A DNA stretch of 42,065 nucleotides, taken from positions 1 through 42,065 of the IMG/VR virus record IMGVR_UViG_3300048034_000948; one strand, written 5' to 3'. The notes below the pieces were generated by a model. It searched no databases. It had not been told where the DNA came from and worked only from the letters and a program-made list of their open reading frames with translations. Positions 6,172 through 22,654 of this stretch are shown in pieces; position 1 is the stretch's first letter; every line of letters starts with the position of its first letter. The position numbers and the translations under genes were made by a program. The stretch is from a virus.

Positions 6172-7035
6172 TTATAGTAGTGGAAGGAAGGTGCCGATGG
6201 TGTCATCGACAATATCCTCCACAGGTTTTAAAGTGCCATTTGGTTGTTTAGGTGTAATACCTTCTTTGAGCATACCTTGTGTTGAAGTCGTCAATTCTAG
6301 TTGCGATTGATGAAGCCGAGTTTGCTCCACTTTTCTTTCGCTTTTTGGAAGCCACTGCTTTTTTTTTGACTTAACTTTCTTACGCTTGCCAAGTACGTCA
6401 TTCTTGGTGGCTTTTGGTTTATAGGGCGATCCATATGCGGAGTTGTAGGGCGAGTACGCATAGCCATTAGTGAAAGTAGAGTATCGTACTTTTAATTCCT
6501 TATGAGAATTATTAGAATACCAAATGCCTTCTTGCCATTCGCCTGCTTCCTCATTGACGATTACATAGTTTGCTTTTTTATCGATAAAAACAAGTTTTGA
6601 TCCACTACCGATACACGCTTGCAAGGTACGCTTGCCATAATCTGAGTAAATGAATTTTTTATCACCTTTATGGATAGGCTTAATATAGTCATCTACAAAG
6701 GTTCTTGTATCGGATTTATCCTTGTCGGTAATGTCAATGCCACTGATGACTCCGTTGTGAATCATAGCCAACTCGTCTGTAATGGCGAAAGGGTGGCAGT
6801 TGGTTGAGTCAACTAAGCCGTGGGTACTCCAACGAAAGTGGATTGCCATGGGCTTATCCATGTGAGGTTGGATTGCGTTCCAAAATGAATCGAAAGTCAT
6901 GAATCCTTTCTCAATTAAAACTTTACCTTTATAGGGATAAGCAAAACCTGCTCCGTCATCATTTGACTCCCAAGCGGTTTCCATTTCGTGTTTTATAACT
7001 TTTTTGTTTTGTGGTTTATAGATTGCTAAGCACAT
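6172..7035 (-). CDS. class II glutamine amidotransferase-like Ntn hydrolase
   Basis: The protein begins MCLAIY, so removal of Met exposes Cys2, the N-terminal nucleophile of class II amidotransferases (GATase2, Ntn fold). Further family blocks are NDDGAGFAY at 25-33, HFRWSTHG at 66-73, NCHPF at 79-83 and HNG at 93-95. In the family Cys2 attacks the amide of glutamine or another gamma-glutamyl amide. This 287-residue protein is too short for a synthase domain; its last third is Lys-rich (GKRKKVKSKKKQW near 218-230) and has no known domain. Amidoligase genes are often beside such thiol hydrolases, and here the amidoligase at 7187-8104 is directly upstream with its own promoter. AAGGA lies about nine bases before the ATG. 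The hydrolase may feed ammonia to the ligase or cleave its product. Confidence 0.8.
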   Translation of the reverse strand: MCLAIYKPQNKKVIKHEMETAWESNDDGAGFAYPYKGKVLIEKGFMTFDSFWNAIQPHMDKPMAIHFRWSTHGLVDSTNCHPFAITDELAMIHNGVISGIDITDKDKSDTRTFVDDYIKPIHKGDKKFIYSDYGKRTLQACIGSGSKLVFIDKKANYVIVNEEAGEWQEGIWYSNNSHKELKVRYSTFTNGYAYSPYNSAYGSPYKPKATKNDVLGKRKKVKSKKKQWLPKSERKVEQTRLHQSQLELTTSTQGMLKEGITPKQPNGTLKPVEDIVDDTIGTFLPLL

Positions 7036-7079
7036 AATTTTTTTCCTTATTTTATGGTTTGTATTTATCTTATAATCTT

Positions 7080-7107
7080 AATATACATCATATATTAGAT
7101 ATGTCAA
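7080..7107 (-). promoter_or_regulatory. sigma70-type promoter (TTGACA-N16-TATATT)
   Basis: TTGACA at 7107-7102 and TATATT at 7085-7080 on the minus strand. The spacer and -10 region are almost the same as in the promoter at 8147-8174 (both contain ATATATGATG). The leader is about 38 bases and carries AATAAGGA before the ATG at 7035. It drives the amidotransferase-like operon. Confidence 0.72.
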
Positions 7108-7135
7108 GAGAAACTTTTATTTTTTTTAAAGTATT

Positions 7136-7164
7136 GAGAGGGGAGGTTTTACCCATCCCCCCTC
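7136..7164 (-). terminator. probable terminator after amidoligase gene
   Basis: A GC-rich hairpin lies in the 80-base gap between the amidoligase stop (7187) and the next promoter: GAGGGG at 7138-7143 pairs with CCCCTC at 7159-7164, with inner AGG/CCT-type pairs. The T run after it on the minus strand is short and broken, so termination may be partial. Confidence 0.45.
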
Positions 7165-7186
7165 ATGTGGTGGTCATAGACAAATT

Positions 7187-8104
7187 TCAGTTCCGATCAT
7201 CATATTGAATTGCCAAGTCTTCTGCTTTGACTCGCATTCTGCGGTAATTATCTTTGAAAATAGGCAAGAAATAATTTTTACCGAGGTGGTGGTAAAACCA
7301 CTTTAGTGATTCTGCTCCATACCCAGGTGACTTTTGTTGCCATCTGTAGTTTGTGGCATTCATTGTTCGTTTTGCGTTGTGAATTATCGCAAAGACTGAC
7401 CACAGGTGGTGCATGAGCTTGTATTTATTAAGCGTGCCAGCGAATGCTCTGAACTCAATCGTTCCTTTACCATTCATATTCTGTAGATTTACAGGCGCAT
7501 AGCGCTGAAGGGAATTGAGCCGAGTTCGATGACGACACTTATCAGCCACGGGCTTGCGTTGCTCTTCTTGTACATTTAGTACCCACCGAGAATCATCTCC
7601 GATGCGTTCGCAATAAGTATTGCGATCACGACGTGTGCCAGTCTGTGCGAAGAGGGCATCTTGCCAACGATATGACAAATGTGCGACTCTCGTAAGAAAG
7701 GTAACTATTTTCGCAGTAGAAGCGCCACGTCCAAGTACGGAATCGATACCGACATGAATATGTAAGCCACATGAGTGATTTACACGCGCTCCAATGGATT
7801 GAAGCCATTTTGCAAACTCCAATACGTTTTCTACTCCTTCGTTGCCGACCAATATAGGGCTTACGAACTCTACTCCTTCTCTATTATACGAATGCGTACG
7901 TATAGATGAGTCATGCTCAGCGAGCCATCTCATGTCATTGAATCGAGGAGCACCATAAACAGGCTCTCCATTATGGTAATCGCCAATGTCCATGTTGTCT
8001 GCTTCATGTTCGGGAATTGTTGTCTCGACTTCGATGCCGAAAGACCAATTTTCTCCTTTCGCACTTTGATCAGTGAATAAATTTAGTTGGGTGTCTATGT
8101 CCAT
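7187..8104 (-). CDS. putative amidoligase (Amidoligase_2, GS-like COOH-NH2 ligase)
   Basis: This 305-residue protein shows the full set of Amidoligase_2 blocks. They are GIEVET at 23-28 (first metal-binding acidic strand), HDSSIRT at 64-70 with EGVEFVSPIL at 76-85, CGLHIHVG at 112-119, and KGTIEFRAF at 213-221. The family shares the glutamine-synthetase fold and is predicted to join a carboxylate to an amine with ATP. Its genes are known to neighbour class II amidotransferase-like thiol hydrolases or AIG2-type cyclotransferases. Here the hydrolase is the next gene downstream and a cyclotransferase lies at 15601-15966. The gene has its own promoter (8147-8174), AAGGA before ATG 8104, and a hairpin after its stop. 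Substrate unknown: peptide, cell-wall, protein or base modification are all possible. Confidence 0.85.
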   Translation of the reverse strand: MDIDTQLNLFTDQSAKGENWSFGIEVETTIPEHEADNMDIGDYHNGEPVYGAPRFNDMRWLAEHDSSIRTHSYNREGVEFVSPILVGNEGVENVLEFAKWLQSIGARVNHSCGLHIHVGIDSVLGRGASTAKIVTFLTRVAHLSYRWQDALFAQTGTRRDRNTYCERIGDDSRWVLNVQEEQRKPVADKCRHRTRLNSLQRYAPVNLQNMNGKGTIEFRAFAGTLNKYKLMHHLWSVFAIIHNAKRTMNATNYRWQQKSPGYGAESLKWFYHHLGKNYFLPIFKDNYRRMRVKAEDLAIQYDDRN

Positions 8105-8146
8105 ATATTATCCTTATTTTGTGGGTTATCTTATTGTTATAAACTC

Positions 8147-8174
8147 AATATACATCATATATTGAATAAGTCAA
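8147..8174 (-). promoter_or_regulatory. sigma70-type promoter (TTGACT-N16-TATATT)
   Basis: TTGACT at 8174-8169 and TATATT at 8152-8147 on the minus strand. The leader of about 36 bases contains AATAAGGATAAT directly before the ATG at 8104. Its similarity to 7080-7107 suggests the ligase and hydrolase operons are switched on together. Confidence 0.72.
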
Positions 8175-8201
8175 GTAATTTTTTAAATTTTTTTCATTTT
8201 C

Positions 8202-9077
8202 TTAATCAACTAAGTTGAGTAGTTCCTCTAATGTTCTAGGATTTCGCTCCGAGGTTGCGCCAGTTGCTTGATCTTCATACTCTTCGGGGTAATTAGTATG
8301 ACTTCCATATATAATTGGTTCGTCTACTTTTTGAGCCTCGTCTTGGTTTTCGTGACCGATGATAAATCTAGCCAAGTCTCTGTAAGGTCTGTAAGCGTCT
8401 CTGTTTTTGATGCGCCAGAGAAGGTCACGCCTTGATGCAATGGGTCTATTTTGCAAATACCGCCCAGGACATTCTTCATCATCAGATTGACCCCAGAATC
8501 TAGACGAATTTACAATGAGCCTTTCGCGCTGATGCAGGTGGTTTATGAGTTTATGCACGCACCGCCCGATATCAGACTCTTGGTCGTCTCCCCAAAGTAT
8601 TGGGATATATCTAGTTAGCCATGCGCTAAATCTAATCTTGATCATAAGTAAACCTTGATCAGTGAAATAATAGTTAGGTTCTTCAAACTTAGTTCTAGTC
8701 TGACCTGTCATGAATTCCACTGGGGGCATATTAGATTTTGCATCTTCTATAAGAAGGGTATTTACAAGTTTAGCTATTTCCTCTTGAGCTTTTTGCATCT
8801 TTGCACGCTTCCAAGCAAACTGCTTGTCATAGATTTCTCTATGTGCGCTAGGGAATTGTAGGTATCCTTCTATTCGAAACCTCCAAGCTTCATTATTCTC
8901 TATCTTGGCAACTACATCTTCGTCAGAAACTTTTGAAGCGAATGCAACACGTGCACGAGCAAATTCGGGTTTTTCAAAATTGGTAAGAAATAAACGCATG
9001 CCTTTGTTGGCAATAGTTGGGACGATTGATGTAGCTAGGTGCGTCTGTAGTTTTTCTTTTATCTTATCTTGTATCAT
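8202..9077 (-). CDS. hypothetical 291-aa protein
   Basis: No family was recognised. The protein looks alpha/beta with many charged helices (KQFAWKRAKMQKAQEEIAKL near 84-103), a central aromatic and Arg-rich part (WLTRYIPILWGDDQESDIGR near 153-172), and an acidic C-terminal tail (EEYEDQATG...). No transmembrane span or signal peptide is seen. ATG 9077 is chosen because the promoter at 9086-9114 would start transcription within a few bases of it, so the mRNA should be leaderless. It lies directly upstream of the amidoligase gene, so a role in the same pathway is possible but only positional. Confidence 0.72.
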   Translation of the reverse strand: MIQDKIKEKLQTHLATSIVPTIANKGMRLFLTNFEKPEFARARVAFASKVSDEDVVAKIENNEAWRFRIEGYLQFPSAHREIYDKQFAWKRAKMQKAQEEIAKLVNTLLIEDAKSNMPPVEFMTGQTRTKFEEPNYYFTDQGLLMIKIRFSAWLTRYIPILWGDDQESDIGRCVHKLINHLHQRERLIVNSSRFWGQSDDEECPGRYLQNRPIASRRDLLWRIKNRDAYRPYRDLARFIIGHENQDEAQKVDEPIIYGSHTNYPEEYEDQATGATSERNPRTLEELLNLVD

Positions 9078-9085
9078 ATATTATA

Positions 9086-9114
9086 TATATAAATAACTCT
9101 TGTTACTTAGTCAA
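9086..9114 (-). promoter_or_regulatory. sigma70-type promoter giving a near-leaderless mRNA
   Basis: TTGACT at 9114-9109 is followed after 17 bases by TATATA at 9091-9086 (or TTATAT at 16). The -35 lies inside the last codons of the 57-aa gene at 9103-9276. Expected start is near 9079, two bases before the ATG at 9077. Confidence 0.66.
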
Positions 9115-9276
9115 GTTTTTTATTGGTTTTTTTTGTAGCAAATAAGTAGCACAGTCATCTTCCCAGCCTGGGTAAACTTTTTGCTGGTACGCTTTCGCTT
9201 CAATGACATCTTCAAAGGGGCCGTGAAATGTTAAGCCTGCTTCAAGGTCGCCATATACTAGTATTATTTTATTCAT
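9103..9276 (-). CDS. small 57-aa protein
   Basis: ATG at 9276 opens 57 codons ending in TAA at 9103. The protein starts MNKIILVYGDLEAGLTFHGP, then has an acidic helix (FEDVIEAKAY) and a PGWEDDCATYLL segment. This has the look of a compact alpha/beta protein that folds on its own. I associate similar short proteins with phages but know no function. It follows the 56-aa zinc-ribbon gene by 13 bases and shares its promoter. The next promoter's -35 overlaps its end. Confidence 0.68.
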   Translation of the reverse strand: MNKIILVYGDLEAGLTFHGPFEDVIEAKAYQQKVYPGWEDDCATYLLQKKPIKNLTK

Positions 9277-9289
9277 TATATTTATCAGG

Positions 9290-9460
9290 TTATTCAGGTA
9301 AGCAATCTTTGCATATTACATGATGCCTTTCTGGTATTGTTACTTTTCTTCCACAGCAATCGCATTTGCGGATGCCTACTAAATGAAACAGCGCACTGAA
9401 CACTTTGTAGAAAGTCCAACAACATAAGCCATAGAAGAGTAATTTTATATATTGTTCCAT
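9290..9460 (-). CDS. 56-aa membrane-anchored zinc-ribbon protein
   Basis: The protein starts MEQYIKLLFYGLCCWTFYKV, a hydrophobic span of about 25 residues. It then has CDCCGRKVTIPERHHVICKDC, in which two C-x2-C pairs and two His form a zinc-ribbon-like knuckle. The frame is open further upstream (to 9556), but the promoter at 9468-9496 lies inside that extension, so ATG 9460 is chosen. The mRNA would begin at or next to this ATG. A small membrane-tethered zinc finger could recruit a host or phage protein to the membrane; this is inference. Confidence 0.66.
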   Translation of the reverse strand: MEQYIKLLFYGLCCWTFYKVFSALFHLVGIRKCDCCGRKVTIPERHHVICKDCLPE

Positions 9461-9467
9461 AGTTACT

Positions 9468-9496
9468 ATATAACTACATTTATAAATATATGTCAA
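9468..9496 (-). promoter_or_regulatory. sigma70-type promoter giving a leaderless mRNA
   Basis: TTGACA at 9496-9491 and TTATAT at 9473-9468 on the minus strand, 17 bases apart. Expected start is near 9461 and the ATG is at 9460. It is the most upstream promoter of the small-gene region. Confidence 0.68.
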
Positions 9497-9556
9497 GTCT
9501 TTATTGCTATTAAATTTATATGCATATTTTTCTATTGCTGCATATTTGCTGCGCAA

Positions 9557-9741
9557 ACCCTTGCCTTGAGGCTATATAGGTAAAATTTATCAGGAGAACT
9601 AGGTGACCAAGCCTCACCGCCCTGATACTTCGATTTCGCGCCTGTGGTGATTTTTGGGATTTCGCAGAATTTTTATTTCTGTGGCACCGCCCCACCTTAA
9701 GCCCTAGCCATGTGTCGCACCGCCCTAGGGTGAGCCTCTGC
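9557..9741. other. GC-rich non-coding island 3
   Basis: There is no gene between the small-terminase stop and the small-gene region. It has three ACCGCC words (9616-9621, 9686-9691, 9719-9724). The block GCCATGTGTCGCACCGCC at 9707-9724 resembles those in islands 1 and 2. Hairpin candidates are CCCTAG...CTAGGG (about 9702-9730) and CAGAA...TTCTG near 9665-9681. It may contain the terminator of the terminase-side operon, but no clean stem plus T run was found. Confidence 0.5.
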
Positions 9742-10218
9742 CTAGTTTCTTAATAAACTTCTGTATTCAGAAGCTTTTGTGTACTTATCAAGTACTTTCT
9801 CTAGGCTAGCGTCATCTAAACTACGCTCTGTTATAGCCATAGTCTCTATTGGGCCTCCATCTGGGCCACTTACTTCATGCTTTTCTCGCCTACCCCAATT
9901 AGATGGGTCACTTCTCTCTAAATACCATGCGGCTGCAGTCCAATTATTTTGTGCTGCTTTCTGTATTAAAACGATATTTCGGTTCTGAGCTTCAGCTATG
10001 CTTTTTTTTATGGACTCCGCAAATTGGTTGGCCAGCGTTCCTTCGATATCGCAGTCATTATCTCTTAACCATTTATACAATTGTGTCTCACTACATCCAG
10101 CTAATAGGCAAGCATTCTTCTTCGTATTTCCCGATCTAAGTGCCTGACAAAGATTTGCGACAAATTTTTCATCATGTCTTTTATCTTTTCTACCTATTTT
10201 GCTACTATGTGTGTTCAT
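9742..10218 (-). CDS. terminase small subunit-like protein
   Basis: This 158-residue protein has an N-terminal helix-turn-helix (NTKKNACLLAGCSETQLYKW near 35-54), a long helix (ESIKKSIAEAQNRNIVLIQKAA), then AAAWYLERSDPSNWGRREKHEV and SGPDGGPIE. The WYLER..P..WGRR.KHEV..GPDGGPI run is typical of small-terminase-like phage proteins, which bind the packaging site and hand DNA to the large subunit. It starts at ATG 10218, overlapping the ParB-like gene by four bases. The large subunit is 7.5 kb away rather than next door. Confidence 0.75.
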   Translation of the reverse strand: MNTHSSKIGRKDKRHDEKFVANLCQALRSGNTKKNACLLAGCSETQLYKWLRDNDCDIEGTLANQFAESIKKSIAEAQNRNIVLIQKAAQNNWTAAAWYLERSDPSNWGRREKHEVSGPDGGPIETMAITERSLDDASLEKVLDKYTKASEYRSLLRN

Positions 10219-10871
10219 GTTTCTTTGAATGCTAAGTTAAGTATATCACCGCTATGTTTTATGTATGGACGTTTATTAAGTTGTTCTCGTATATATGCAT
10301 TGAACTTTATCTTATCTGTAGGGTTCTCGAAGTATAGGTCATATATGAAGTTTTTGCTTACGTCTATTTGGGGGGATTCTGTATCACTGGTAGTGATACT
10401 ACTATTATCTTCAATAATAGTATCATCGTCAAGTAATTCAGGTAGAGTTCTTCTCATTATCTCTTCCACATGTTCATCTTCAAGTAGTGTTCCTTTTAGT
10501 CCGTCTTCCATTTCTTTTAATTCGCTTACGATTCTCCCTAGTTTTGCTGTGTCAAATTCTCCAGCATGATTATTCAGTGCCAAACAAATTGTCATTTCGT
10601 GTTCTTCAGGCTGATCGATGATCCAAGCATCAATCTCTTTCAAGCCTTTCCTTTTAAATATTTTCAGGCGCTGATGTCCTGCAAGCAATCTGTTTGTTCT
10701 TTTATTTATTACGATTGGCTGTATTGATCCAAACTTATCGTAACTTTCTTCTAAAAGTTTTAATCCTTTTCTGCTGACTATTCTAGGGTTGTCCTTCAGT
10801 AAGTGGATTTCGGAGACTTTCTTTTTCTCCAATCTCGGATATATGTTTTTTGATTTCTTGTTCAGATGCAC
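10215..10871 (-). CDS. ParB/Srx-fold domain protein (copy A)
   Basis: The first 110 residues form a ParB N-terminal-like domain. KVSEIHLLKDNPR is followed by LEESYDKFGSIQPIVINKRT and the hallmark AGHQR (the GHxR motif; CTP or nucleotide-binding in ParB). There is no ParB helix-turn-helix or dimer domain after it. The C-terminal part ends in an alpha/beta piece (KFNAYIREQL...) that looks like the end of copy B at 12956-13561. The only start that keeps the whole domain is GTG 10871 (or TTG 10832), so it overlaps the upstream gene by 50-89 bases. Phage ParB-fold proteins of this type often sit with methyltransferase and terminase genes, as here. Likely a DNA-linked regulator or nuclease-like factor rather than a partition protein. 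Confidence 0.74.
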   Translation of the reverse strand: MHLNKKSKNIYPRLEKKKVSEIHLLKDNPRIVSRKGLKLLEESYDKFGSIQPIVINKRTNRLLAGHQRLKIFKRKGLKEIDAWIIDQPEEHEMTICLALNNHAGEFDTAKLGRIVSELKEMEDGLKGTLLEDEHVEEIMRRTLPELLDDDTIIEDNSSITTSDTESPQIDVSKNFIYDLYFENPTDKIKFNAYIREQLNKRPYIKHSGDILNLAFKET

Positions 10872-11268
10872 CCTTGCCCTTTGTTTTAATATTTAATTGC
10901 TCAAGCATTCTTGCACGAGTTCGGGATGCGTTGCAAAGAAAATCTCTGCATGTTTTAGGGCGATTCTTATAAACTTTACACTTTTTTGTTTCTAGGTCTA
11001 AGTGCTGGCAATTATGGGCAACTAATACTGTAGATGGAACATTTTCTAATTTACCATAATGGGCTAGTGAAAAATCATTATCTCTTGATTCTGGAATAAC
11101 TTTGAAATTAAGCATGGTGCAACAATCACCACATCCCATGCATCCATTCCATTCTTTTTCATTCCTTTTCTCAAATACTTGCTTCTCAATCAATTCATCA
11201 GTTAGTATTTTGTGCGCACCTGTGAATTGCTTTTTGTAATCAGTTATGTCTATCTCTTTTCTACTCAT
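10783..11268 (-). CDS. YkgJ-like cysteine-cluster protein
   Basis: The 161-residue protein has eight Cys in the YkgJ pattern (putative zinc- or iron-chelating domain). NGCMGCGDCC at 41-50 gives C-x2-C-x2-CC, followed by NCQHL at 86-90, KKCKVY at 95-100, and PKTCRDFLC at 104-112. The metal and role are not known for most members. A longer frame starts at 11331, but ATG 11268 shares a base with the stop of the upstream gene (TAATG) and is chosen. The 3' end is read in two frames because the ParB-like gene starts inside it. It lies between the methyltransferase and the small terminase. Confidence 0.78.
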   Translation of the reverse strand: MSRKEIDITDYKKQFTGAHKILTDELIEKQVFEKRNEKEWNGCMGCGDCCTMLNFKVIPESRDNDFSLAHYGKLENVPSTVLVAHNCQHLDLETKKCKVYKNRPKTCRDFLCNASRTRARMLEQLNIKTKGKGASEQEIKKHISEIGEKESLRNPLTEGQP

Positions 11269-11507
11269 TAAAATATTAAGTTTAGAAAAAACATTACAAT
11301 CGAGAAAATTGTGTAAATTAAAGAACAGCAAATAAATCCATACATAAACATAAATGTTTTAAGTAGTTTTTTCTTCTGTTTCTTCTTATCTCTTGGGGGC
11401 GCATCTACCACAAATGGGTCATTGTATATTTCTTTGTATTCCTCCTTAACATTATATTTAGGTTTTGGTTTGTATCCCCATTCCATGTCTAATAATCTAT
11501 TTCTCAT
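11268..11507 (-). CDS. 79-aa tail-anchored membrane protein
   Basis: The first 50 residues are polar and end in a very basic patch (PPRDKKKQKKKLLK at 37-50). Residues 51-79 are one long hydrophobic span reaching the C-terminus. By the positive-inside rule the N-terminus should be cytoplasmic. ATG 11507 overlaps the methyltransferase end by 11 bases, and its stop is TAATG-coupled to the YkgJ-like gene. No family was recognised. Confidence 0.7.
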   Translation of the reverse strand: MRNRLLDMEWGYKPKPKYNVKEEYKEIYNDPFVVDAPPRDKKKQKKKLLKTFMFMYGFICCSLIYTIFSIVMFFLNLIF

Positions 11508-12969
11508 TTATTACCTCCTTTAATCCTTCCGCTATCCATTGTGCAGCAGTTACTGAGACAGCATTTCCCATTTGTTTATACCTTGGGCTATCAGCTTGCT
11601 CTTCTACTACTTGTTTGTTGTCTTTTTCTACTATTCTCCAAAGATTCTCAATGCTTTCTATCTTATATCGATATAAAGTATGATCATCCTGAAATCCTTG
11701 TAATCTTTCGCATTCCTTGGGGGTAAGTCGCCTTACCGCAAAGTCAGTCGTACTTGTTAGCATTTCCTTTCCTGCTCGTAAACACATACTTAACTCCTCT
11801 TTTCCTTTGGGAGTAGTGTCTGAAATTAAAGAGCATACACCCATTTGGCTCTGAGGCTGAGTTCTAATTGAAGGGCTGACTTCTTCTTTTTCTGTCTCAA
11901 TCATAGTATCTCCCTCTCTGCCTCGCTGTGAAAACGCAATTGCTGGCTGTCGTTGACCACCAGCCATAGTATTTAATGTTGGGCTAACACATTCCTCTGG
12001 GTCTCCTGTAACTCTCGGTACTCCGTCTTGTGATCTTGGCTCAAATGCTATACTTTCTCGCACCGCCTTGGTATTAAGCCCTTGCCTATCCTTTGCGACA
12101 TTGTGAGCAACTCCATGCTGGTCTGCTGAAGTTAAGGTAAAGCATACATCTTCATTTATCCCACTTCCTTGAGGGCCATTCTTATGATCTCTACCAATCA
12201 TAGAACCTTGTATGCTAATTACTTTAGGGCCAGATCCTGTTGCATTTCCTGTGGCTGTGGTGAGGGTGGCTGCGGTTTCTCCAGTTTGCTGTCCGTTGTA
12301 CACATCGACTCCAGGGCTTGGCGTAGCATTATTGGTAGGTTTTTTAATTTCCCCCTTTTTTCTGTCCTGTCTAGGATTCCCCGACAAGCGGTTGGTGAGA
12401 GCAAATACTTTAGCGATGGATTCTCCTCCAAAATTTCCGAAAGACGAGAGTATAAAGACTCGTCTACGTCGCTGGGCAACAGATTTGTTCCTCTTTCCAT
12501 TGGCACACCATCCCACGTGTTGGCTGTCCAGTACCGTCCATCCGACTGCATTACTCCCGATGTCGGTAAGTTGTCTAATGCACCGAGGAAGTGCGAGAGC
12601 ATTATCTGCACTGAGGAGTCCGTAGACATTCTCAGCCAAGGCAAACCGCAATCCTCTATCTCTTTTTCCGTGAATAAGTCTAGTTGCATGATAAAATAAT
12701 CCTGTTCGTGTTCCTTCTTTCATTCCTGCTCTTTGTCCAGCAACGGACACATCTTGGCAGGGAAAACCATATAAAATAGCATCTGCATCTGGTAAATCAG
12801 ATGCTTCTACCTTTGTAATATCTGTAAATACAGGGATGTGAGGGCGGTGGTACTTTAATACTCCTGCTGCATTTTTATCTAGTTCTACATTTGCAACGCA
12901 TTCCCATCCAGCATTCTCAAAACCACAATCAAGTCCTCCTACGCCTGCGAATAAGCTAATAAATTTCAT
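11497..12969 (-). CDS. DNA (cytosine-5-)-methyltransferase
   Basis: This is a full-length C5 methyltransferase of 490 residues. Motif I is SLFAGVGGLDCGF (SAM binding) at 5-17. Motif IV is GFPCQDVS at 68-75 with the catalytic Cys71. Motif VI is ENV at 113-115 and motif VIII is QRRRRVF at 166-172. Motifs IX/X include LTPKECERLQGF and YKQMGNAVS near the C-terminus. The long stretch between VIII and IX, with several T-L-T/T-L-N pieces, is the target recognition region. It should put a methyl on cytosine C5 in a specific sequence, probably to shield phage DNA from host restriction. No cognate restriction enzyme is in the window. ATG 12969 overlaps the ParB-like gene by 14 bases. Confidence 0.93.
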   Translation of the reverse strand: MKFISLFAGVGGLDCGFENAGWECVANVELDKNAAGVLKYHRPHIPVFTDITKVEASDLPDADAILYGFPCQDVSVAGQRAGMKEGTRTGLFYHATRLIHGKRDRGLRFALAENVYGLLSADNALALPRCIRQLTDIGSNAVGWTVLDSQHVGWCANGKRNKSVAQRRRRVFILSSFGNFGGESIAKVFALTNRLSGNPRQDRKKGEIKKPTNNATPSPGVDVYNGQQTGETAATLTTATGNATGSGPKVISIQGSMIGRDHKNGPQGSGINEDVCFTLTSADQHGVAHNVAKDRQGLNTKAVRESIAFEPRSQDGVPRVTGDPEECVSPTLNTMAGGQRQPAIAFSQRGREGDTMIETEKEEVSPSIRTQPQSQMGVCSLISDTTPKGKEELSMCLRAGKEMLTSTTDFAVRRLTPKECERLQGFQDDHTLYRYKIESIENLWRIVEKDNKQVVEEQADSPRYKQMGNAVSVTAAQWIAEGLKEVINEK

Positions 12970-13561
12970 CAGATGATTGTGTTTTATTTATTAATTCAAA
13001 CATATAATCCGTAATTGGACGATTATACTTAGCTTTCGACTTACATATATCTATAAAATTCTCAAAGGCTATTTTTTGCTCCAATGTACTAAAACTTAAT
13101 GAGACCTTGTATAAGTCACTTTGATTTAGTAATTCATAAGACTGATCTTCTAGCTCAGTATCTATATCGTTTACAAAATTAGCTATTTGCTCACTAGAAA
13201 AACCAGTGAATTTTAAATCTTCACCTTGAATATCTTCAAATATTTTTTTGACTTTTTCATCATCAAATATAGCTACTTCTTGATTTAGGGCAATGTTTGC
13301 TGATGGCTCATGGAATTCATCAATATCAATCAAGTAAGCATCCACATACTCATTTGTTTTTTTTAAAACCTCAAACCTTTGATGACCAGCAATAATTTTA
13401 TTAGTTCTTTTATTTACAACAATAGGTTGTAATACTCCAAACTTCTCGATGCTCTTTTCGAGTACATCTAATGACTCTTGTGTTATTTGTCTAGGATTAC
13501 TGAGTTTATCAAAATATATATCTGATACTTTTATTTTTTCAGAATGTATTTTACTACTCAT
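12956..13561 (-). CDS. ParB/Srx-fold domain protein (copy B)
   Basis: This 201-residue protein has the same ParB N-terminal-like domain as copy A. KVSDIYFDKLSNPRQI is followed by LEKSIEKFGVLQPIVVNKRT and AGHQR, with a shared C-terminal alpha/beta end (FENFIDICKSKAK, TDYMFELIN). The frame extends to 13594, but ATG 13561 gives MSSKIHSEK directly before the domain and overlaps the small gene 13554-13733 by eight bases. It is fused by overlap to the methyltransferase gene downstream, so the two are made together. A guide, regulator or DNA-binding partner of the methyltransferase is a reasonable guess. Confidence 0.76.
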   Translation of the reverse strand: MSSKIHSEKIKVSDIYFDKLSNPRQITQESLDVLEKSIEKFGVLQPIVVNKRTNKIIAGHQRFEVLKKTNEYVDAYLIDIDEFHEPSANIALNQEVAIFDDEKVKKIFEDIQGEDLKFTGFSSEQIANFVNDIDTELEDQSYELLNQSDLYKVSLSFSTLEQKIAFENFIDICKSKAKYNRPITDYMFELINKTQSSDEIY

Positions 13562-13733
13562 CGTGTTTTTCAATTTCATCAATGCATAATTCAACGGCTC
13601 TGTTAAATACAGCTGCTACTACCTTTTTAATATTAGCATCAGTAATCTCTGTTCCGCTTTGATCCGTTAGAGTCATTTCTTCAGCTATTTTTTTTAGGTC
13701 TGTTAATTTATTAATTATCTCATCTTTTTTCAT
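13554..13733 (-). CDS. small acidic 59-aa protein
   Basis: ATG at 13733 opens 59 codons ending in TAG at 13554. The protein is helical and acidic (MKKDEIINKLTDLKKIAEEM at the start, ending IDEIEKHDE). The promoter at 13740-13769 puts the expected start of transcription one base before this ATG, and the stop overlaps the next gene's start by eight bases. It therefore leads the ParB-methyltransferase-YkgJ-terminase operon. No family was recognised. Confidence 0.66.
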   Translation of the reverse strand: MKKDEIINKLTDLKKIAEEMTLTDQSGTEITDANIKKVVAAVFNRAVELCIDEIEKHDE

Positions 13734-13739
13734 TTGTTA

Positions 13740-13769
13740 TATATATTAACTAAAATTAATAAATGTCAA
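13740..13769 (-). promoter_or_regulatory. sigma70-type promoter giving a leaderless mRNA
   Basis: TTGACA at 13769-13764, then TATATA at 13745-13740 after 18 bases (or ATATAT at 17). The expected start at about 13734 is next to the ATG at 13733. It probably drives the whole row 13554 to 9742. Confidence 0.66.
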
Positions 13770-13774
13770 TACAT

Positions 13775-15601
13775 TTAATGCATGTCGATCCTACTCTGGA
13801 TGCTGGTGAGGATATTCTTGTAATCTTTTGATGATCGCCCTTGCCCTTCACTTGCTTTTCCTACTACTTCTCTTTTTGACTCAATTAAATTCCAAATATC
13901 TGTATCTATAGTGTTAGGCGCTAGTAGGTAATAACACGTTACTGCATTCTCTTGCCCTATTCGGTGCGCTCTATCTTCGGCTTGGTCGTGTAGGGCTGGA
14001 GTCCATCCACACTGTATGAAAACAACATCACTGGCAGAGGTTAAGGTTATTCCTACTCCAGCCGCCTGTAGTGAACATACAATGATCTTAGATTGATCGT
14101 TTGTCTGAAAATTATCTACATTATTTTGTCGTTCTTCTGCACTCATTTCTCCAAGCACGCTAGCAGGAGAAAAATGGGATAATCTATCGAGTAGTCCTTT
14201 TTGTATGCTAATGTTGTCAGCAAAAATAATAAGTTTATTACCATTAAGCATAAATTCTTCTATCCAACTAATACAGGAGTCAATTTTTTCTGTAGCGCAT
14301 CTTTGCTTTAATTTGTTCAGCAACATCAAAGCTTCTGCGTTTTCTATATTTTCTGATTTTCTATTAAAATAATTTTTAACAAAAATACTTATATCTTTTT
14401 TGCTCTTGCACTTATTTAAATTGATTAAATCCTCGCGCGATGGATTCTTGAAATCTTTTCTAATGAAATCTTTGCAATACTTAATTGGATTCTCTGAAAT
14501 GATATAATTGTACATTTCTGCTTCCTCTTTGTACTGTTCTTTTCTTTGCTGTATTTCCTCTAAAACTTCTATTTCAGCATTTGCATAGTTTTCTGGATTG
14601 GATAACTCTACATCAATGACGATTCTTTGTTTATCAGGAAGCTCTTTCAAGACATCTTTTTTTTGACGTCTTATATAGCACCTTTTTCTGAGTTCTTGAT
14701 TCAAAATGTCCAAATTTTTTGCTCCTGATATGTTTAAACCAAATCTTCCTTTGTATGCTGCACAATAATTTTTAGTAAAATACTGCCAACCTCCAAGCTC
14801 TCCTAGTCTATTGATAATTTCTAATTGAGAAATTAATTCACTGGGTCTGCTTAAAATAGGTGTACCGCTTAGTAAAAAAACATTCTCACAATTCTTTGAT
14901 AATTCTTTTACTTGTTTTGTCCGAGCTGCAGAAGAATTTTTTAAATAATGACTTTCATCACATATAATAGTTTTGTATGCTATGCTTTCTAATATATCTT
15001 TATATTTTTTGATTTGTGAGTATGGAATAATATTAAAGTCAGCATTCCTGTTAGGCTTCTCGTCCACACTGCACCACTCATCAAACCATTTTATTATCTC
15101 CTTCTTCCAATTTTTCTGTAATGAAACAGGGCAAATTATTAAACAAGGAAATCCATTTACATTCGCAGTTGATGCAAGTGCTTGAACAGTTTTCCCTAAA
15201 CCCATTTCATCAGCTAAAAAGCATTTTTTTTGCTTGCTTAAATAAACAACTCCAGCTTTTTGAAATGGTCTTAATTCATGCTGTAATATATCTACTTCTA
15301 TAGTCGCGTCTGTATCAAAAGATGCATCATATATTTCGTTTTTTGTTTTTACAGTACTATCTTTTTTACCTAAAGCTTTTGTTACACTTTGTGTAATAGT
15401 AAACTGATTTTTTTCTAAAAAAACATATAAGTTTTCTATAATCTCTGACTTATTAGAAACATCTAAATTAAAAACCCAAAGCTTTTGTTTTGGATTCCAG
15501 CGCCTGCAATAAGCGGGAAATAATTTTATTTGATCTACTAGAGTAGGATCATATGGGAAAGATATATTAATCTTTCCATCGTTGCATTCTGCTACACGCA
15601 T
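13775..15601 (-). CDS. SNF2-family DNA helicase/translocase (SMARCAL1/HARP-like)
   Basis: This is a 608-residue two-lobed SNF2 ATPase. Motif I is DEMGLGKT at 131-138, motif II is DESH at 215-218, LLSGTP is motif III, and DRAHRIGQ is motif VI near 550. Before the helicase, residues 10-65 (YCRRWNPKQKLWVFNL) resemble the HARP-type substrate recognition domain of annealing helicases such as SMARCAL1. Phages use such enzymes in replication-fork repair or recombination. It starts at ATG 15601, which shares a base with the stop of the cyclotransferase gene (TAATG). It is complete; no nuclease domain is fused. Confidence 0.9.
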   Translation of the reverse strand: MRVAECNDGKINISFPYDPTLVDQIKLFPAYCRRWNPKQKLWVFNLDVSNKSEIIENLYVFLEKNQFTITQSVTKALGKKDSTVKTKNEIYDASFDTDATIEVDILQHELRPFQKAGVVYLSKQKKCFLADEMGLGKTVQALASTANVNGFPCLIICPVSLQKNWKKEIIKWFDEWCSVDEKPNRNADFNIIPYSQIKKYKDILESIAYKTIICDESHYLKNSSAARTKQVKELSKNCENVFLLSGTPILSRPSELISQLEIINRLGELGGWQYFTKNYCAAYKGRFGLNISGAKNLDILNQELRKRCYIRRQKKDVLKELPDKQRIVIDVELSNPENYANAEIEVLEEIQQRKEQYKEEAEMYNYIISENPIKYCKDFIRKDFKNPSREDLINLNKCKSKKDISIFVKNYFNRKSENIENAEALMLLNKLKQRCATEKIDSCISWIEEFMLNGNKLIIFADNISIQKGLLDRLSHFSPASVLGEMSAEERQNNVDNFQTNDQSKIIVCSLQAAGVGITLTSASDVVFIQCGWTPALHDQAEDRAHRIGQENAVTCYYLLAPNTIDTDIWNLIESKREVVGKASEGQGRSSKDYKNILTSIQSRIDMH

Positions 15602-15966
15602 TAAACATAAACTTCATTGTAAGCTTCTTTTGCTGTACCATATTTTTCATTCTGAATATAGTAGACCCATGCCTTGTATTTTTTTTCGTCTTCTCCTACA
15701 AAAAAATCTTCTTCCCTTTTATACCAATCAGGATGTCCTTCTAATAAGTCAATTCTCCACATCATTTCGTCAGGTATTTCCCAAATCTCTCCTCTCACAA
15801 ACACTCCTCCTACGATGTCTGGTTTATTTAAATAAGGGAGACCATCAACAACTAGCTTTCTTGGCTCTAGTGTTCTTGCTTTAACTAAAAAATCCGCACC
15901 ACAAGAAGTAAGCAAACTATTGTTTCCTTGATTCATCTTGAGTGTTCCGTAAACGAATACTTTCAT
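15601..15966 (-). CDS. gamma-glutamylcyclotransferase (AIG2/GGCT-like)
   Basis: The 121-residue protein has the family signature VYGTLKMNQGNN at 5-16 (substrate loop), GEIWEIP at 59-65 and LLEGHPDWYKRE at 74-85. Glu76 is in the position of the catalytic acid. Such enzymes release a gamma-glutamyl group as 5-oxoproline; BtrG in butirosin synthesis removes a protecting gamma-Glu this way. AIG2-type cyclotransferases are a known partner of Amidoligase_2 genes, and this phage carries two such ligases. Here the gene sits between a ribbon-helix-helix gene (one base gap) and the SNF2 helicase (TAATG overlap), 7.5 kb from the nearer ligase. All key residues appear intact. Confidence 0.88.
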   Translation of the reverse strand: MKVFVYGTLKMNQGNNSLLTSCGADFLVKARTLEPRKLVVDGLPYLNKPDIVGGVFVRGEIWEIPDEMMWRIDLLEGHPDWYKREEDFFVGEDEKKYKAWVYYIQNEKYGTAKEAYNEVYV

Positions 15967-17709: not shown

Positions 17710-19122
17710 TTAAGCCATTAAAAGTTTATTGGTTTTTTTCACCATACTAAAGGCTAAACTAACGGCGTCAATCTGATCATCATGTTTTCCGTCAGGGAAT
17801 GTTCGTAGCTCTTCTATAAAATCATAATTCCACTCTGCTTTTACTAAAAAAACTCTCCCTGCTTGTACTTTTGCTAACCAAGGATTTGCTTTTGTTAATT
17901 TATCTCCTTTTAGGTTTAAACCTAATACTATATTTTTCCCTAATCTTTCTTTTTTTACTTCTTCATATGCAGTAATAAAACCACCAATGGCTTCTATACC
18001 AATTCTATTTTGTTCTAAATCTGCATATCGTGATATTGTGGATTTTATTTCGTGCCATGTCATACGCTTCTTTGTTATATTTAATATATATAAAAAGTCA
18101 CGTTGCTTGTCGTATGCACATAATGCACTAGCGGTAAAATCCGATGTCTGTGTTTTAGTTACTGCTAAGTCCCATGCCCTTACTTTTTCTATGTTATGTG
18201 GGACATTATGAGCATCAATATAGTTTAACATTTCAATATCTACTATATTCCCACCTTTTGATATCGGCTGACCATTATAAAGAGAATTAAATTCATAAGG
18301 TGTAAGCATTACTTTTCTAGCTTCTATGAAATTTACATCTTTATTCTCAGGCCATAGTGCTTCTCCTTCTTTTCTTCCCAGTTCATCTTGCTCTTCTTGG
18401 CATATGGCTGGGAAGTTCATAACGTCATACACTTGATTAGTAAATCCTTGAGACTCTAATTGCTCTGTATATGATTTATTCGTCAATCTTCCAACTAAAT
18501 CATCTTCGTGCCATCTAGTCATAATAATAATTACTAAACTATCAGGAGTTAATCGGGTCATAGCTACAGATTGATACCAATCCCAAATATGATCTCTGGA
18601 TGTCTGTGATTCTGCAGCTGCTCTATCTTTGTGTGGGTCATCTATGACTAGACACGATGCTCTATTTCCAGTTAATCCAGCCCCTAAACCAACTGCTCTA
18701 ACTCCTCCTCCCTTGGTTGTCATCCAGTTATTTGCAGTTCTGGTATCTTCTGACATTTTTGCTTTAGGGAAAATTGCTTTATATATGTCGCTCTCAAATC
18801 TTCTTCTAATAGATTTACTGTTTTTTAGAGGAAGCTCGGTATTATATCCAGCGATAACAATATTTTGAGTGGGGTCTCTACCTAAAAAAAACGATGCAAA
18901 TTCTTCTGCTATTAATCTACTTTTACCATGCTGAGGTGGCATGTTAATTATTAATCTTCTTTCACCAGTTTGCTGTATTAAATTATTTAAATAATCGCAC
19001 AAATAGACATGTACTTTTGAAGGTATGTACAAAGGGTCATTTACTAGAGTGTATGCAAGTAAATCATTTTGAGCTTCTTTCGTAAGAGCTATTCTTCCTT
19101 CATAAGCTAAGTTTTTATCCAT
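17710..19122 (-). CDS. terL: terminase large subunit
   Basis: This 470-residue protein is the packaging motor. The Walker A block is MPPQHGKSRL at 61-70, Walker B is CLVIDDP at 157-163, and the C-motif-like TRWHEDDL is at 202-209. The nuclease domain carries RAWDLA at 315-320 (Asp317 in the metal site), GIEAIG in the middle, and KHDDQIDAVSLAF near the end, with the last acidic pair. It cuts concatemeric phage DNA and pumps it into the capsid. It is complete and starts at ATG 19122. The small subunit is not adjacent but at 9742-10218. Confidence 0.94.
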   Translation of the reverse strand: MDKNLAYEGRIALTKEAQNDLLAYTLVNDPLYIPSKVHVYLCDYLNNLIQQTGERRLIINMPPQHGKSRLIAEEFASFFLGRDPTQNIVIAGYNTELPLKNSKSIRRRFESDIYKAIFPKAKMSEDTRTANNWMTTKGGGVRAVGLGAGLTGNRASCLVIDDPHKDRAAAESQTSRDHIWDWYQSVAMTRLTPDSLVIIIMTRWHEDDLVGRLTNKSYTEQLESQGFTNQVYDVMNFPAICQEEQDELGRKEGEALWPENKDVNFIEARKVMLTPYEFNSLYNGQPISKGGNIVDIEMLNYIDAHNVPHNIEKVRAWDLAVTKTQTSDFTASALCAYDKQRDFLYILNITKKRMTWHEIKSTISRYADLEQNRIGIEAIGGFITAYEEVKKERLGKNIVLGLNLKGDKLTKANPWLAKVQAGRVFLVKAEWNYDFIEELRTFPDGKHDDQIDAVSLAFSMVKKTNKLLMA

Positions 19123-19161
19123 AACTGGATAAAACTTATAATTTATATAATCACAACAAAA

Positions 19162-19533
19162 TTATTGCACTTGTATTTGATTAGAGGAACTCACTACATC
19201 AGAGTCTCCAGTATCATTAGTAACAGCAACACCAAACAAATAATATCCTGCAGTAGTTTCTTCGTAAGAAAAAATAAATCTTTCACCTGTCGTAGTGGTA
19301 TCTGTACTATTGGTTGATGATAATACAGGATTTAATAATGAATTTCCTGTTTGGGTGTCTGTATTTGCTGTAATAGACCACACTAGCGGATCACCAGAAA
19401 GCTCAATAGTAGCGATATGATCATCTGAGGGAGTAACGCTAGTTGCTTCTCCATCACTTATAGATTTTCTATAAATCTTAAACCCAGTTTCATTGTCTGC
19501 GTTATCTAAGAATCCCATTTGTATCACTGCCAT
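19162..19533 (-). CDS. FN3-like structural protein
   Basis: The 123-residue protein has the start of a fibronectin-type-III domain. NADNETGFKIYRKS near 11-24 is the usual D..NETGF.IYR strand pair, followed by Thr/Ser-rich beta strands and an AGYYLFGVAVTN closing strand. No signal peptide or membrane span is present. It is the last gene of the tail fibre block, so a small virion decoration or fibre-tip protein is likely. A similar NNEDGF segment begins the 2541-aa protein. Confidence 0.62.
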   Translation of the reverse strand: MAVIQMGFLDNADNETGFKIYRKSISDGEATSVTPSDDHIATIELSGDPLVWSITANTDTQTGNSLLNPVLSSTNSTDTTTTGERFIFSYEETTAGYYLFGVAVTNDTGDSDVVSSSNQIQVQ

Positions 19534-19576
19534 AATATTATTCTATTGTAACTTTAATTATCTATTCAAGTTAAAT

Positions 19577-22500
19577 TTATGAAGGGGTAAAATTAAAGTA
19601 TGGATGCTCTGGGTCTAATGCTAGTCCCCATTTATGTGCTAAATGTCCTTCTATTTTATAAAAATCTTCCATACTTATTTTTTTAGGTATAATGACAGCT
19701 TCTCCAATTATTAGATCCTGACCTTGATTGTAGTGCTGTCCTCCTAACCTAAAACTACTACTAGAATCATTTACTGGTGATAAGTTTTGATTTGTTTTCA
19801 TTTTTCGATATGTGTCCTCACCGCTTTGCGTAGCGATCTGTGAAAACATCCCAAGTCCATCTGAGACAGAAAACCTGTAACTTAATAGTTGTGGCTCCAC
19901 TGAAGCAACTCCATTCACTCTCGCTCCTCCTGCTACATTTCCATAATCAAAGTAATGGTTTCCACTCCAAGGCGCGTGAGCTAAAAACCTATTTGTTTGG
20001 TAATCAACCTGCCACCATAAATAACCTTGTTGATCTGCAGTCGTAGGTCTAATTACATAAAACATTTGAAATTCGCTACAGCTGCCTTCATAGGTCAATG
20101 GCGATTCATCAAATCTATACAGGGTGTCTCTTGAAATATATATGGCATTATCTCCATTTATATCATAGCCACATAACGCTGGTGATTTCATACTCGTGGC
20201 TGTTCCAGTAAAAACTTCAGATAAGTTGGGAAGTATTGCGAGATTTCCATGCTCTGGAAATTCTTCATCTGTTGGGTTCATCCAGAAACTTGGATTGTAT
20301 GCTAGCATGTCTAGGCTACCCTGTAGGACTGGCGTAATAGCTTTAGCATATCTAATACCTAGTTCTACCATGGAGGTGGGTGTGTAGTGACGATTATCGT
20401 AGCTTTGTAGGTCGTTAGTTTCTATCTCAATAGTTTTTTCATTATTTTTAAGGTTTGATAGTGCCTGAAAAACTTCTTCGCTGTGTGCTTTGTCAGATTT
20501 TACTGCTCCATAAAAAACTGGTATATTCCCATAAATTGATCGAATTGTAGAAAATAAATTATTTATATTTTTTGCATCTGACTCTAACTCATATTTGTAT
20601 GCATTTAAGTTTTCTAGCGTACCCTTAAATTGTGGAGATACTTTTTGCTCTGCTGTCAATGGTGTGAAATATGCACCTATTGAATAAGGATAAGAGTTAT
20701 AATTAACTAAATCATTCCCATCATCTTCAAAATATTTTTCATGCTGAGATATAGATTGCTCACGCATTTTTTCGTAAGAAATATCGTGCCTTGTAAATGA
20801 ATTATATCTATTTCCATTCACAAATGAGATTCCGTACCTATTTATAAAATTATTAATAGTCCCTGAATAGTACCTCCAAGTAGACTGCATAAATACTCCT
20901 CCACCTCTTTCCCTAAATGCTTGCAGGGCATCATAGAAGGAATTATTTCCAAATTTACTCCATGTGTTATTTTTAGCAATACAGTTATATATAACTGCAT
21001 CATATTGCTCTAAGTATTCTAGTATAGTAAGGTATGACTCTGTAGATCTAATTTTATTTTTCCACTCTAAGTCATCTATGTGCTGCGTAAAATGAAGAAA
21101 CCATGGTGTATTTGATGTTGGGTATGCATTAGCCTGCTGTTGCCAGTAATCCATTCCATATGTTTTTCTGTACATAGAAGATATTTCATACCCACTTCTT
21201 CTTACATGAGGGACATTATGGAATTCAATGCCATTTGCTTCTGCTAAAACCTTATACCAATCTTCACTATATGATGCTGCTGCCCACCATTGGTAGTCTT
21301 CTGATGTAGTAATATCACTTATTAATAGTATTTTCTTACTTCCTTCAGGGTTATTTGAAGATTTTGTAACTAAATTTTTTATAATATTGTACTGCATTGC
21401 TACATCATTGCCGCCACTATTTGTATTTATACTTGGAACATAAGCTGGTACATGATTAGTGATTAGTCCAAAATTTTGCGTACTTTCACCCGCTATATGA
21501 TACCAAAGGTGCTTTGGTGTACTTGAATTAAAAGCAACTTCTATTGTTCCTTCCTCATCGAAGTACACAACTCCATTAGGATCTGATGAAAACCCATGAT
21601 AAATTTCACTACTTGTTAGGGTGGGGTCTGTTTGTAAAAATGATATACCTTTTCCTTCAAATCCAGATGGCATTTGAATTTTAATTTTAGATCCATGAGC
21701 GGCTTCTAGGTCTGGATGACTTGATGCTCCTTGCTGTACTTCTGATTCGCTAATTATGTAGTTATCTTTTTTTAATATCTTTCCTGTTCTAGATAAGTAA
21801 TTATCCTTCAGGTTTGATGAATAAGTATCCTTATAAGAAGTTTTGTATTCAGGCAGGTTATTGCCTTCTCCCATAAAATCATAAAGCCATGCAGAGGAAA
21901 GTGGATTATTGGCCATTAATACCATATCTCCAGGCTCTTGGTTTAACCTCAAGGGCATGTATGGTTTTGGGTTTGGAAAAGAATGTATTGTTAAATAACT
22001 CTTTGTGCTCAAGTTATTGCAAGCACTATCAATACAGTCTTTGATTTCAGTATATGCAGTTGCATCGACCTCTTGCACTTCATCTGAAAATATCCTTTGT
22101 TCTACTGGTATTTCTGTCTGTAAAAGCTGAGTTTGAGTTATGTTTTCTACCTCATCATCCATTCCAGCATGAAACAGTACAGCTCTTACTCTGCCTTGTA
22201 TATTTTGTGAAATTAATGATTCAACTTTTGGTGTTATTTCAGTAGTAATTAAGTCTAATAGTTTTGTGTTTTTTTCTATGTAATCTCTGACTGTAAATCC
22301 ATCTATAGCTATTTTTATTAAATATGTTGTCCTGCGCTTCCTTTTTGAAAAATACTGCATCATTGATGCATCCCAACCTAAATAAGAATTATACTCACTA
22401 AGATTACCTTCACTTATTTCTTTTGGTACTGAAATCTGATAACTACCATTGTTCGTATTTGTAAAATTTATGCCTATGGGTACTATAACATCATTTTGTG

Positions 22501-22654
22501 GAGTTAATTCCAATTCTATGCTTTCCCCTATATCGTTTTCGTAATTAGGGCTTGTTAATAGCTCACTAGGTAAAAAATCCTTTTCGGCATATCCATTAAT
22601 TCCATATGTGTTTTCTAGAGTTGGAATTATACTAGCTACTTCTGAATGTGGCAT
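19577..22654 (-). CDS. large tail adhesin with ThuA/GATase1-like and LamG-like domains
   Basis: This 1025-residue virion protein is rich in Ser, Asn, Tyr and Thr. Residues about 438-600 form an alpha/beta segment. A strand KKILLISD, then a region around AVIYNCI, then FRERGGGVFMQ together resemble class I amidotransferase or ThuA-type flavodoxin folds. The same segment occurs in the 2541-aa protein. The last 230 residues look like a concanavalin/LamG-like lectin domain, closing with the common EGHLAHKWGL motif. Such lectin folds bind glycans, so a host-surface adhesin is likely. It starts at ATG 22654, four bases after the previous stop. No catalytic Cys-His-Glu triad is evident, so enzyme activity is uncertain. 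Confidence 0.78.
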   Translation of the reverse strand: MPHSEVASIIPTLENTYGINGYAEKDFLPSELLTSPNYENDIGESIELELTPQNDVIVPIGINFTNTNNGSYQISVPKEISEGNLSEYNSYLGWDASMMQYFSKRKRRTTYLIKIAIDGFTVRDYIEKNTKLLDLITTEITPKVESLISQNIQGRVRAVLFHAGMDDEVENITQTQLLQTEIPVEQRIFSDEVQEVDATAYTEIKDCIDSACNNLSTKSYLTIHSFPNPKPYMPLRLNQEPGDMVLMANNPLSSAWLYDFMGEGNNLPEYKTSYKDTYSSNLKDNYLSRTGKILKKDNYIISESEVQQGASSHPDLEAAHGSKIKIQMPSGFEGKGISFLQTDPTLTSSEIYHGFSSDPNGVVYFDEEGTIEVAFNSSTPKHLWYHIAGESTQNFGLITNHVPAYVPSINTNSGGNDVAMQYNIIKNLVTKSSNNPEGSKKILLISDITTSEDYQWWAAASYSEDWYKVLAEANGIEFHNVPHVRRSGYEISSMYRKTYGMDYWQQQANAYPTSNTPWFLHFTQHIDDLEWKNKIRSTESYLTILEYLEQYDAVIYNCIAKNNTWSKFGNNSFYDALQAFRERGGGVFMQSTWRYYSGTINNFINRYGISFVNGNRYNSFTRHDISYEKMREQSISQHEKYFEDDGNDLVNYNSYPYSIGAYFTPLTAEQKVSPQFKGTLENLNAYKYELESDAKNINNLFSTIRSIYGNIPVFYGAVKSDKAHSEEVFQALSNLKNNEKTIEIETNDLQSYDNRHYTPTSMVELGIRYAKAITPVLQGSLDMLAYNPSFWMNPTDEEFPEHGNLAILPNLSEVFTGTATSMKSPALCGYDINGDNAIYISRDTLYRFDESPLTYEGSCSEFQMFYVIRPTTADQQGYLWWQVDYQTNRFLAHAPWSGNHYFDYGNVAGGARVNGVASVEPQLLSYRFSVSDGLGMFSQIATQSGEDTYRKMKTNQNLSPVNDSSSSFRLGGQHYNQGQDLIIGEAVIIPKKISMEDFYKIEGHLAHKWGLALDPEHPYFNFTPS

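Follow-up and report, generated by a model that had tools for sequence, protein, structure and literature searches.

The 42,065-bp IMG/VR virus record IMGVR_UViG_3300048034_000948, analysed over its whole length and referred to here as the window, contains terminase, tail and methyltransferase genes together with four genes that probably constitute an amide-forming cassette. The first, ligA (7187-8104), encodes a 305-residue amidoligase of the Amidoligase_2 family (PF12224) with a predicted glutamine synthetase (GS) fold. It is followed by a gene (6172-7035) for a 287-residue stand-alone class II glutamine amidotransferase of the GlmS N-domain type, termed GATase. A divergent Amidoligase_2 paralogue of 320 residues, ligB, is located at 78-1040, and a 121-residue gamma-glutamyl(amine)cyclotransferase-like protein (GGACT, PF06094), termed GGCT, is encoded at 15601-15966. 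The four open reading frames (ORFs), which an earlier note on this DNA had delimited, are present at these coordinates, all on the minus strand and free of internal stops. GGCT ends where an SNF2 helicase gene begins (15601), 7.5 kb from ligA and in a different operon, and is probably co-expressed with the helicase gene.

The same gene order was observed in a second virus record, IMGVR_UViG_3300021958_000041 (G001; 85,196 bp), which is probably complete since it carries a terminal repeat of about 127 bp. The G001 proteins are 69% (GGCT), 67% (ligA), 61% (GATase) and 46% (ligB) identical to those of the window, with ligB lying beyond the contig junction, as expected for a circularly permuted genome. 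A third phage contig of 45.8 kb (L106) encodes a ligA that is 65% identical and displays, at the place of ligB, a 433-residue ORF that is 25% identical to ligB (E 3e-18) and keeps the E-x-E, H-x-H and E-x-R positions; GGCT was not found in this 45.8-kb contig. A fourth contig (L109) contains the row GGCT, helicase, ParB and methyltransferase.

Predicted folds and active sites

Pfam profile searches matched ligA and ligB to PF12224 with scores of 72.9 and 27.1 bits, respectively, both above the curated cut-off of 22 bits, the ligB match covering only positions 106-229 of the 245 in the profile. Residues E25, E27, D65, H115, H117, N206, E217 and R219 (ligA numbering) are invariant across 12 proteins, including ligB. 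Since neither ligA nor its 16-member profile retrieved any meaningful PDB entry by sequence, fold comparison was used instead. The AlphaFold2 models of ligA (pLDDT 80.9, pTM 0.83) and ligB (pLDDT 86.5, pTM 0.89) were compared with the PDB by Foldseek, which revealed YbdK-type and gamma-glutamylcysteine ligases (GCS), glutamine synthetase and PafA as the top matches of ligA, and glutamine synthetases as those of ligB (best E-values of 5e-5 to 2e-4). Both proteins resemble the GS/GshA/YbdK/PafA superfamily in predicted fold and in the E-x-E, H-x-H and E-x-R motifs of the likely active site, although their sequences are too dissimilar for a PDB sequence match. No relatives of ligB were found among 50,697 phage records. 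The Pfam cut-off, the core residues and the predicted GS fold all agree with the view of the earlier note that two Amidoligase_2-type ligases are encoded here, and the models support the assignment of ligA and ligB as GS-fold Amidoligase_2 enzymes with predicted ligase activity.

GATase scored 22.6 bits against PF13522 (GATase_6), under the Pfam cut-off of 27, and most of its homologues are likewise below the cut-off for GATase_4/6; its predicted membership of class II is set by the residues of the Cys and glutamine sites, not by the GATase_6 score. The protein matches PHROG 25883 (2.4e-19), and Cys2, His66, Arg68, Thr71, His81-Pro82, Asn94-Gly95 and Asp109 are invariant in 11 phage GATase homologues. 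A profile of these 11 homologues aligned with GlmS (PDB code 4amv) with an E-value of 1.9e-18 and with the active site in register, comprising the catalytic Cys, the HxRxxT and HNG motifs and the head-group Asp (C2, R68, T71, N94, G95 and D109). In GlmS the Cys is catalytic, HNG is the oxyanion motif and the Asp binds the glutamine head group. As these GlmS-type residues are kept, GATase should hydrolyse glutamine, and because it displays no synthase domain of its own, an ammonia-using partner would be needed. The C-terminal tail of GATase is Lys-rich and lineage-specific. Where the earlier note saw a Cys2 Ntn hydrolase as partner of the ligase, the residues thus point to a glutamine-hydrolysing GATase, for which a role as ammonia donor fits better than that of a second trimming enzyme.

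The identification of GGCT as an AIG2/GGCT cyclotransferase was borne out by a PF06094 score of 65.2 bits and by alignment with human GGACT, in which the YGTL loop is kept and E76, a catalytic-type Glu, falls within the stretch that matches the catalytic region.

Gene pairing in viral loci and promoter-like elements

The survey of related phages that the earlier note had suggested was carried out with hidden Markov models built from phage homologues and run on viral loci. The GATase-selected set comprised 80 loci, L106 among them, gathered by two short patterns, and many of these are interrelated and so are not independent events; 80 terminase-selected loci (790 kb) served as controls. A ligase is present in 76/80 GATase-selected loci, whereas ligase, GATase and GGCT are each absent from all 80 controls. 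The 76 ligase-GATase pairs are without exception on the same strand and separated by at most 92 bp, with the ligase upstream in 72, and in the four loci lacking a ligase GATase lies no more than 833 bp from the contig edge. The ligase is the common element of these loci. In most other phages examined the ligase and GATase frames overlap, while in the lineage of the window they are 111-164 bp apart.

Several phages bring GGCT into the same arrangement. The genes for GGCT, ligase and GATase are consecutive in Arthrobacter phages Salgado and Ottawa, where GGCT is annotated as hypothetical, and all three also occur in C75C1, tf and several viral contigs. In ctfjg026 (MW202828.1 47708-48925) and C75C1 (OQ984151.1 20149-21045) a single protein comprises an N-terminal GATase and a GGACT domain, which ties the two activities to one pathway; the C75C1 fusion is near an amidoligase and that of ctfjg026 beside a weak amidoligase-like frame (22.5 bits). 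Both fusions are annotated as gamma-glutamyl cyclotransferase only.

The location of GGCT in another operon and the separate promoters of two genes could be taken to mean that the four genes are unrelated chance neighbours. This is highly improbable in view of the synteny in G001, the pairing in 76/80 loci compared with 0/80 controls, and the GATase-GGCT fusions; for ligase and GATase in particular, chance neighbourhood is already refuted by the pairing. None of the outcomes that the earlier note had named as contrary to its reading, namely a fold other than GS, lost catalytic residues or lack of co-occurrence, was found.

Promoter-like elements on the minus strand precede ligA (8147-8174; TTGACT-N16-TATATT) and GATase (7080-7107; TTGACA-N16-TATATT). 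The two upstream regions are identical at 30 of 35 bases (shuffles gave a mean of 21 and a maximum of 27), and the near-identical promoters on which the earlier note had based joint expression are therefore real. The motif TTGAC-N16/17-TGTAYATTG precedes ligA and GATase in G001 and GATase in L106, and since it is also found before at least one other G001 gene (79578), it appears to be a promoter used generally by the phage and not one special to the pathway. Within the spacer/-10 region, each of the two elements has an inverted repeat of 7-8 bp centred on TGATG (TCAATATA-TGATG-TATATTGA and TAATATA-TGATG-TATATTA); the repeats differ by a C-G to T-A replacement that involves both arms, and the sequence before ligA in G001 is CAAAGTA-TGATG-TACTTTG. 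The TGATG-centred repeat is possibly an operator for a phage regulator.

Proposed mechanism and relation to known systems

The presence of the genes, their predicted folds and active-site residues, and the conserved pairing are direct observations. A reading that we hold to be, on balance, probable is that the four genes form an amide-forming cassette, in which ligA uses ammonia derived from GATase, ligB carries out a second ligation and GGCT trims gamma-glutamyl groups. In this scheme ligA would use ATP to convert a carboxylate into an acyl phosphate, as in glutamine synthetase, while GATase would hydrolyse free glutamine and pass the ammonia to ligA. The pair would then amount to a glutamine-dependent amidotransferase split over two proteins. 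ligB would catalyse a further ligation of a related type, on that group or on one next to it; its role is the least certain part of the mechanism. Where a gamma-glutamyl group has a free alpha-amine, GGCT would cleave it off as pyroglutamate and thereby trim the product or clear by-products. BtrG releases gamma-Glu as pyroglutamate, and build-and-trim by ligase and GGCT is plausible. We infer the transfer of ammonia from GATase to the ligase, the participation of GGCT in the shared pathway and the nature of the target.

Several points weigh against this scheme. The support comes from sequence and predicted structure, with ammonia transfer being a proposal. TM-scores of the ligA and ligB models with GS-fold proteins are modest (about 0.40-0.47), supporting the superfamily and not a close family. 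In L106 the GATase frame is broken after residue 164. In the lineage of the window, ligA and GATase have separate promoter-like elements and GGCT is located with the helicase gene. GGCT lies within about 10 kb in only 4/80 GATase-selected loci; as ligase is found in 16 of 20 GGCT-selected loci and all three genes in seven, GGCT appears to be a frequent but optional partner. Finally, the residues that bind glutamine in class II GATases could hold other gamma-glutamyl amides, as they would equally accommodate a gamma-glutamyl head group, and GATase may therefore instead cleave a gamma-glutamyl amide built by the ligase.

The earlier note regarded it as unusual that one phage should have two ligases as well as both partners, a view that does not stand, since the combination is already published for PSA-HP1 with its relatives, among them tf, LUZ24, PaP3 and phiEco32 (PMC5498523), for a LUZ24-like phage (PMC11945000) and for ZRK32 (PMC10945688). 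Ligase and GATase were also reported in the LUZ24-like phage UFV-P2 (PMC3890496) and in OM43 phages (PMC10580990). The closest parallels differ from the window in defined ways. The peptidoglycan modification module of tf, LUZ24, PaP3, phiEco32, CW02 and PSA-HP1 likewise comprises an Amidoligase_2 enzyme, a class II GATase, GGCT and a second GS-type ligase; the window, by contrast, has an Amidoligase_2 paralogue as its second ligase, a GGCT gene 7.5 kb away beside the helicase gene, and separate ligase and GATase promoters. In Arthrobacter phages Salgado and Ottawa, OM43 phage MEP402 and Marvin-type mycobacteriophages, a ligase gene likewise adjoins one for a stand-alone GATase whose active-site residues match; these phages differ in having a single ligase in the stretches examined and in a GATase identity to the window protein of about 17-39%. 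Phage-ZRK32 (eLife 2024) also has GATase, amidoligase and GGCT, but differs by an additional glutathione-synthase-like gene and a planctomycete host.

A PF14395 COOH-NH2 ligase was found in neither the window, G001 nor the L106 contig, the tf control being positive, and no RimK ATP-grasp protein (PF08443) was found in G001 or the L106 contig in a search that matched tf at 18 bits and extended neither to the window nor to other ATP-grasp families. As judged by these profile searches, the make-up of the cassette is distinct, with two Amidoligase_2 paralogues and with the PF14395 ligase and RimK ATP-grasp protein not found in the probably complete relative G001. Very dissimilar phages carry ligase-GATase(-GGCT) cassettes, and no report establishing their substrate was found. 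The present cassette is ordinary as a discovery and a useful test case for the substrate question.

Candidate targets and neighbouring genes

The leading, as yet unproven, candidate for the target is the envelope, whether at the peptidoglycan peptide or at some other surface amide. In its wall-specific form, the cassette would amidate or rebuild the stem peptide and so block superinfection or prepare lysis, which we hold tentatively as a possibility. Gamma-Glu linkages occur in peptidoglycan stem peptides, and these fit GGCT and gamma-glutamyl chemistry. Wall modification was already proposed for phiEco32, LUZ24-like and PSA-HP1 phages with the same gene set (PMC5498523, PMC11945000), although for these related cassettes it is a proposal for which no experimental demonstration was found, and the PF14395 ligase and RimK-type ATP-grasp protein of the peptidoglycan module are the components not found in G001 and the L106 contig. 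In addition, a phage recorded for Anaeroplasmataceae (Mollicutes), a host assignment that is the record's own, carries ligase and GGCT. Mollicutes are wall-less, and if the assignment is right this argues against wall peptides as the sole target. An apparent archaeal relative, from a Nitrosotalea metagenome-assembled genome, seems to be a bacterial podovirus contig (lipoprotein-like ORF, replication genes) and was not used as an argument against a wall substrate.

The same Anaeroplasmataceae phage would point to a product outside the wall, such as an amidated or gamma-glutamylated small molecule or a mark on a host protein that aids the phage, for example against host defence, with ligB contributing a lineage-specific step; we consider this unlikely. 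The tight pairing, the GATase-GGCT fusions and a phage that carries ligase and GGCT and is recorded for wall-less hosts together make the peptidoglycan idea testable.

It is comparably unlikely that the genes serve auxiliary nitrogen or glutathione-type metabolism, in which ammonia would be channelled into host amino acids or gamma-glutamyl compounds. A nitrogen role was proposed for Phage-ZRK32, which carries GATase, amidoligase, glutathione-synthase-like and GGCT genes, on the basis of growth effects and not of enzyme assays (PMC10945688). The structural matches of ligA do include YbdK and gamma-glutamylcysteine synthetase, yet no sequence similarity to GshA or YbdK was found in PDB searches, and glutamine synthetase is generally present in bacterial hosts.

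The modified base that the earlier note had listed among possible targets is disfavoured. Such DNA hypermodification, in which the ligase would form an amide on a base bearing a carboxyl group, as CmoX/CmoY do with 5-carboxymethylcytosine and its glycine amide, is in our judgement very improbable. A C5-cytosine DNA methyltransferase gene (11497-12969, minus strand) and ParB-domain genes lie nearby, neighbours as in CmoX phages, and some CmoX-phage ligases bear a glutamine-hydrolysing domain (PMC12783734). The G001 ORF at 18854-19600 (L011) also gave a weak TET-associated glycosyltransferase match (21.8 bits, cut-off 27.5). The mark of CmoX is an SPPC motif with Arg replacing HhaI N304, whereas the methyltransferases of the window, G001 and L109 display GFPC in motif IV and Asn in motif X (GNAV). 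Moreover, the ligases described here are predicted to be GS-fold proteins, a fold unrelated to that of CmoY, an asparagine-synthetase-like AMP-forming ligase. In G001, neither a thymidylate-synthase-family protein (search with positive controls) nor a Tet_JBP protein (search without a positive control) was found. The methyltransferase at 11497-12969 was considered as the source of a carboxyl handle and, with the CmoX residues absent, judged an ordinary methyltransferase. An S-adenosylmethionine-dependent methyltransferase beside the C5-cytosine enzyme in G001 and L109, which is not among the window ORFs, matches methyltransferases in general and was rejected as CmoA, for which it is a weak hit (23.9 bits, cut-off 193).

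G001 displays a row of sulfotransferase-/glycosyltransferase-like genes at about 56-63 kb (L013, L014), flanked by tail genes and the gene for the terminase large subunit. One gene of the row matches Sulfotransfer_2, and the row was not seen at the corresponding place in the window. Beside its terminase large subunit gene the window contains two very large ORFs of 2541 (22659-30284) and 1025 (19577-22654) residues, for which no match was found in G001. Within the C5-cytosine methyltransferase gene, another frame contains a 156-residue ORF (12219-12689, minus strand) without a Pfam match. This embedded ORF is 77.5% identical in G001 (70040-70486), compared with 69% for the methyltransferase itself, and is also present in L109 (10331-10759), such that the methyltransferase gene looks like a dual-coding gene.

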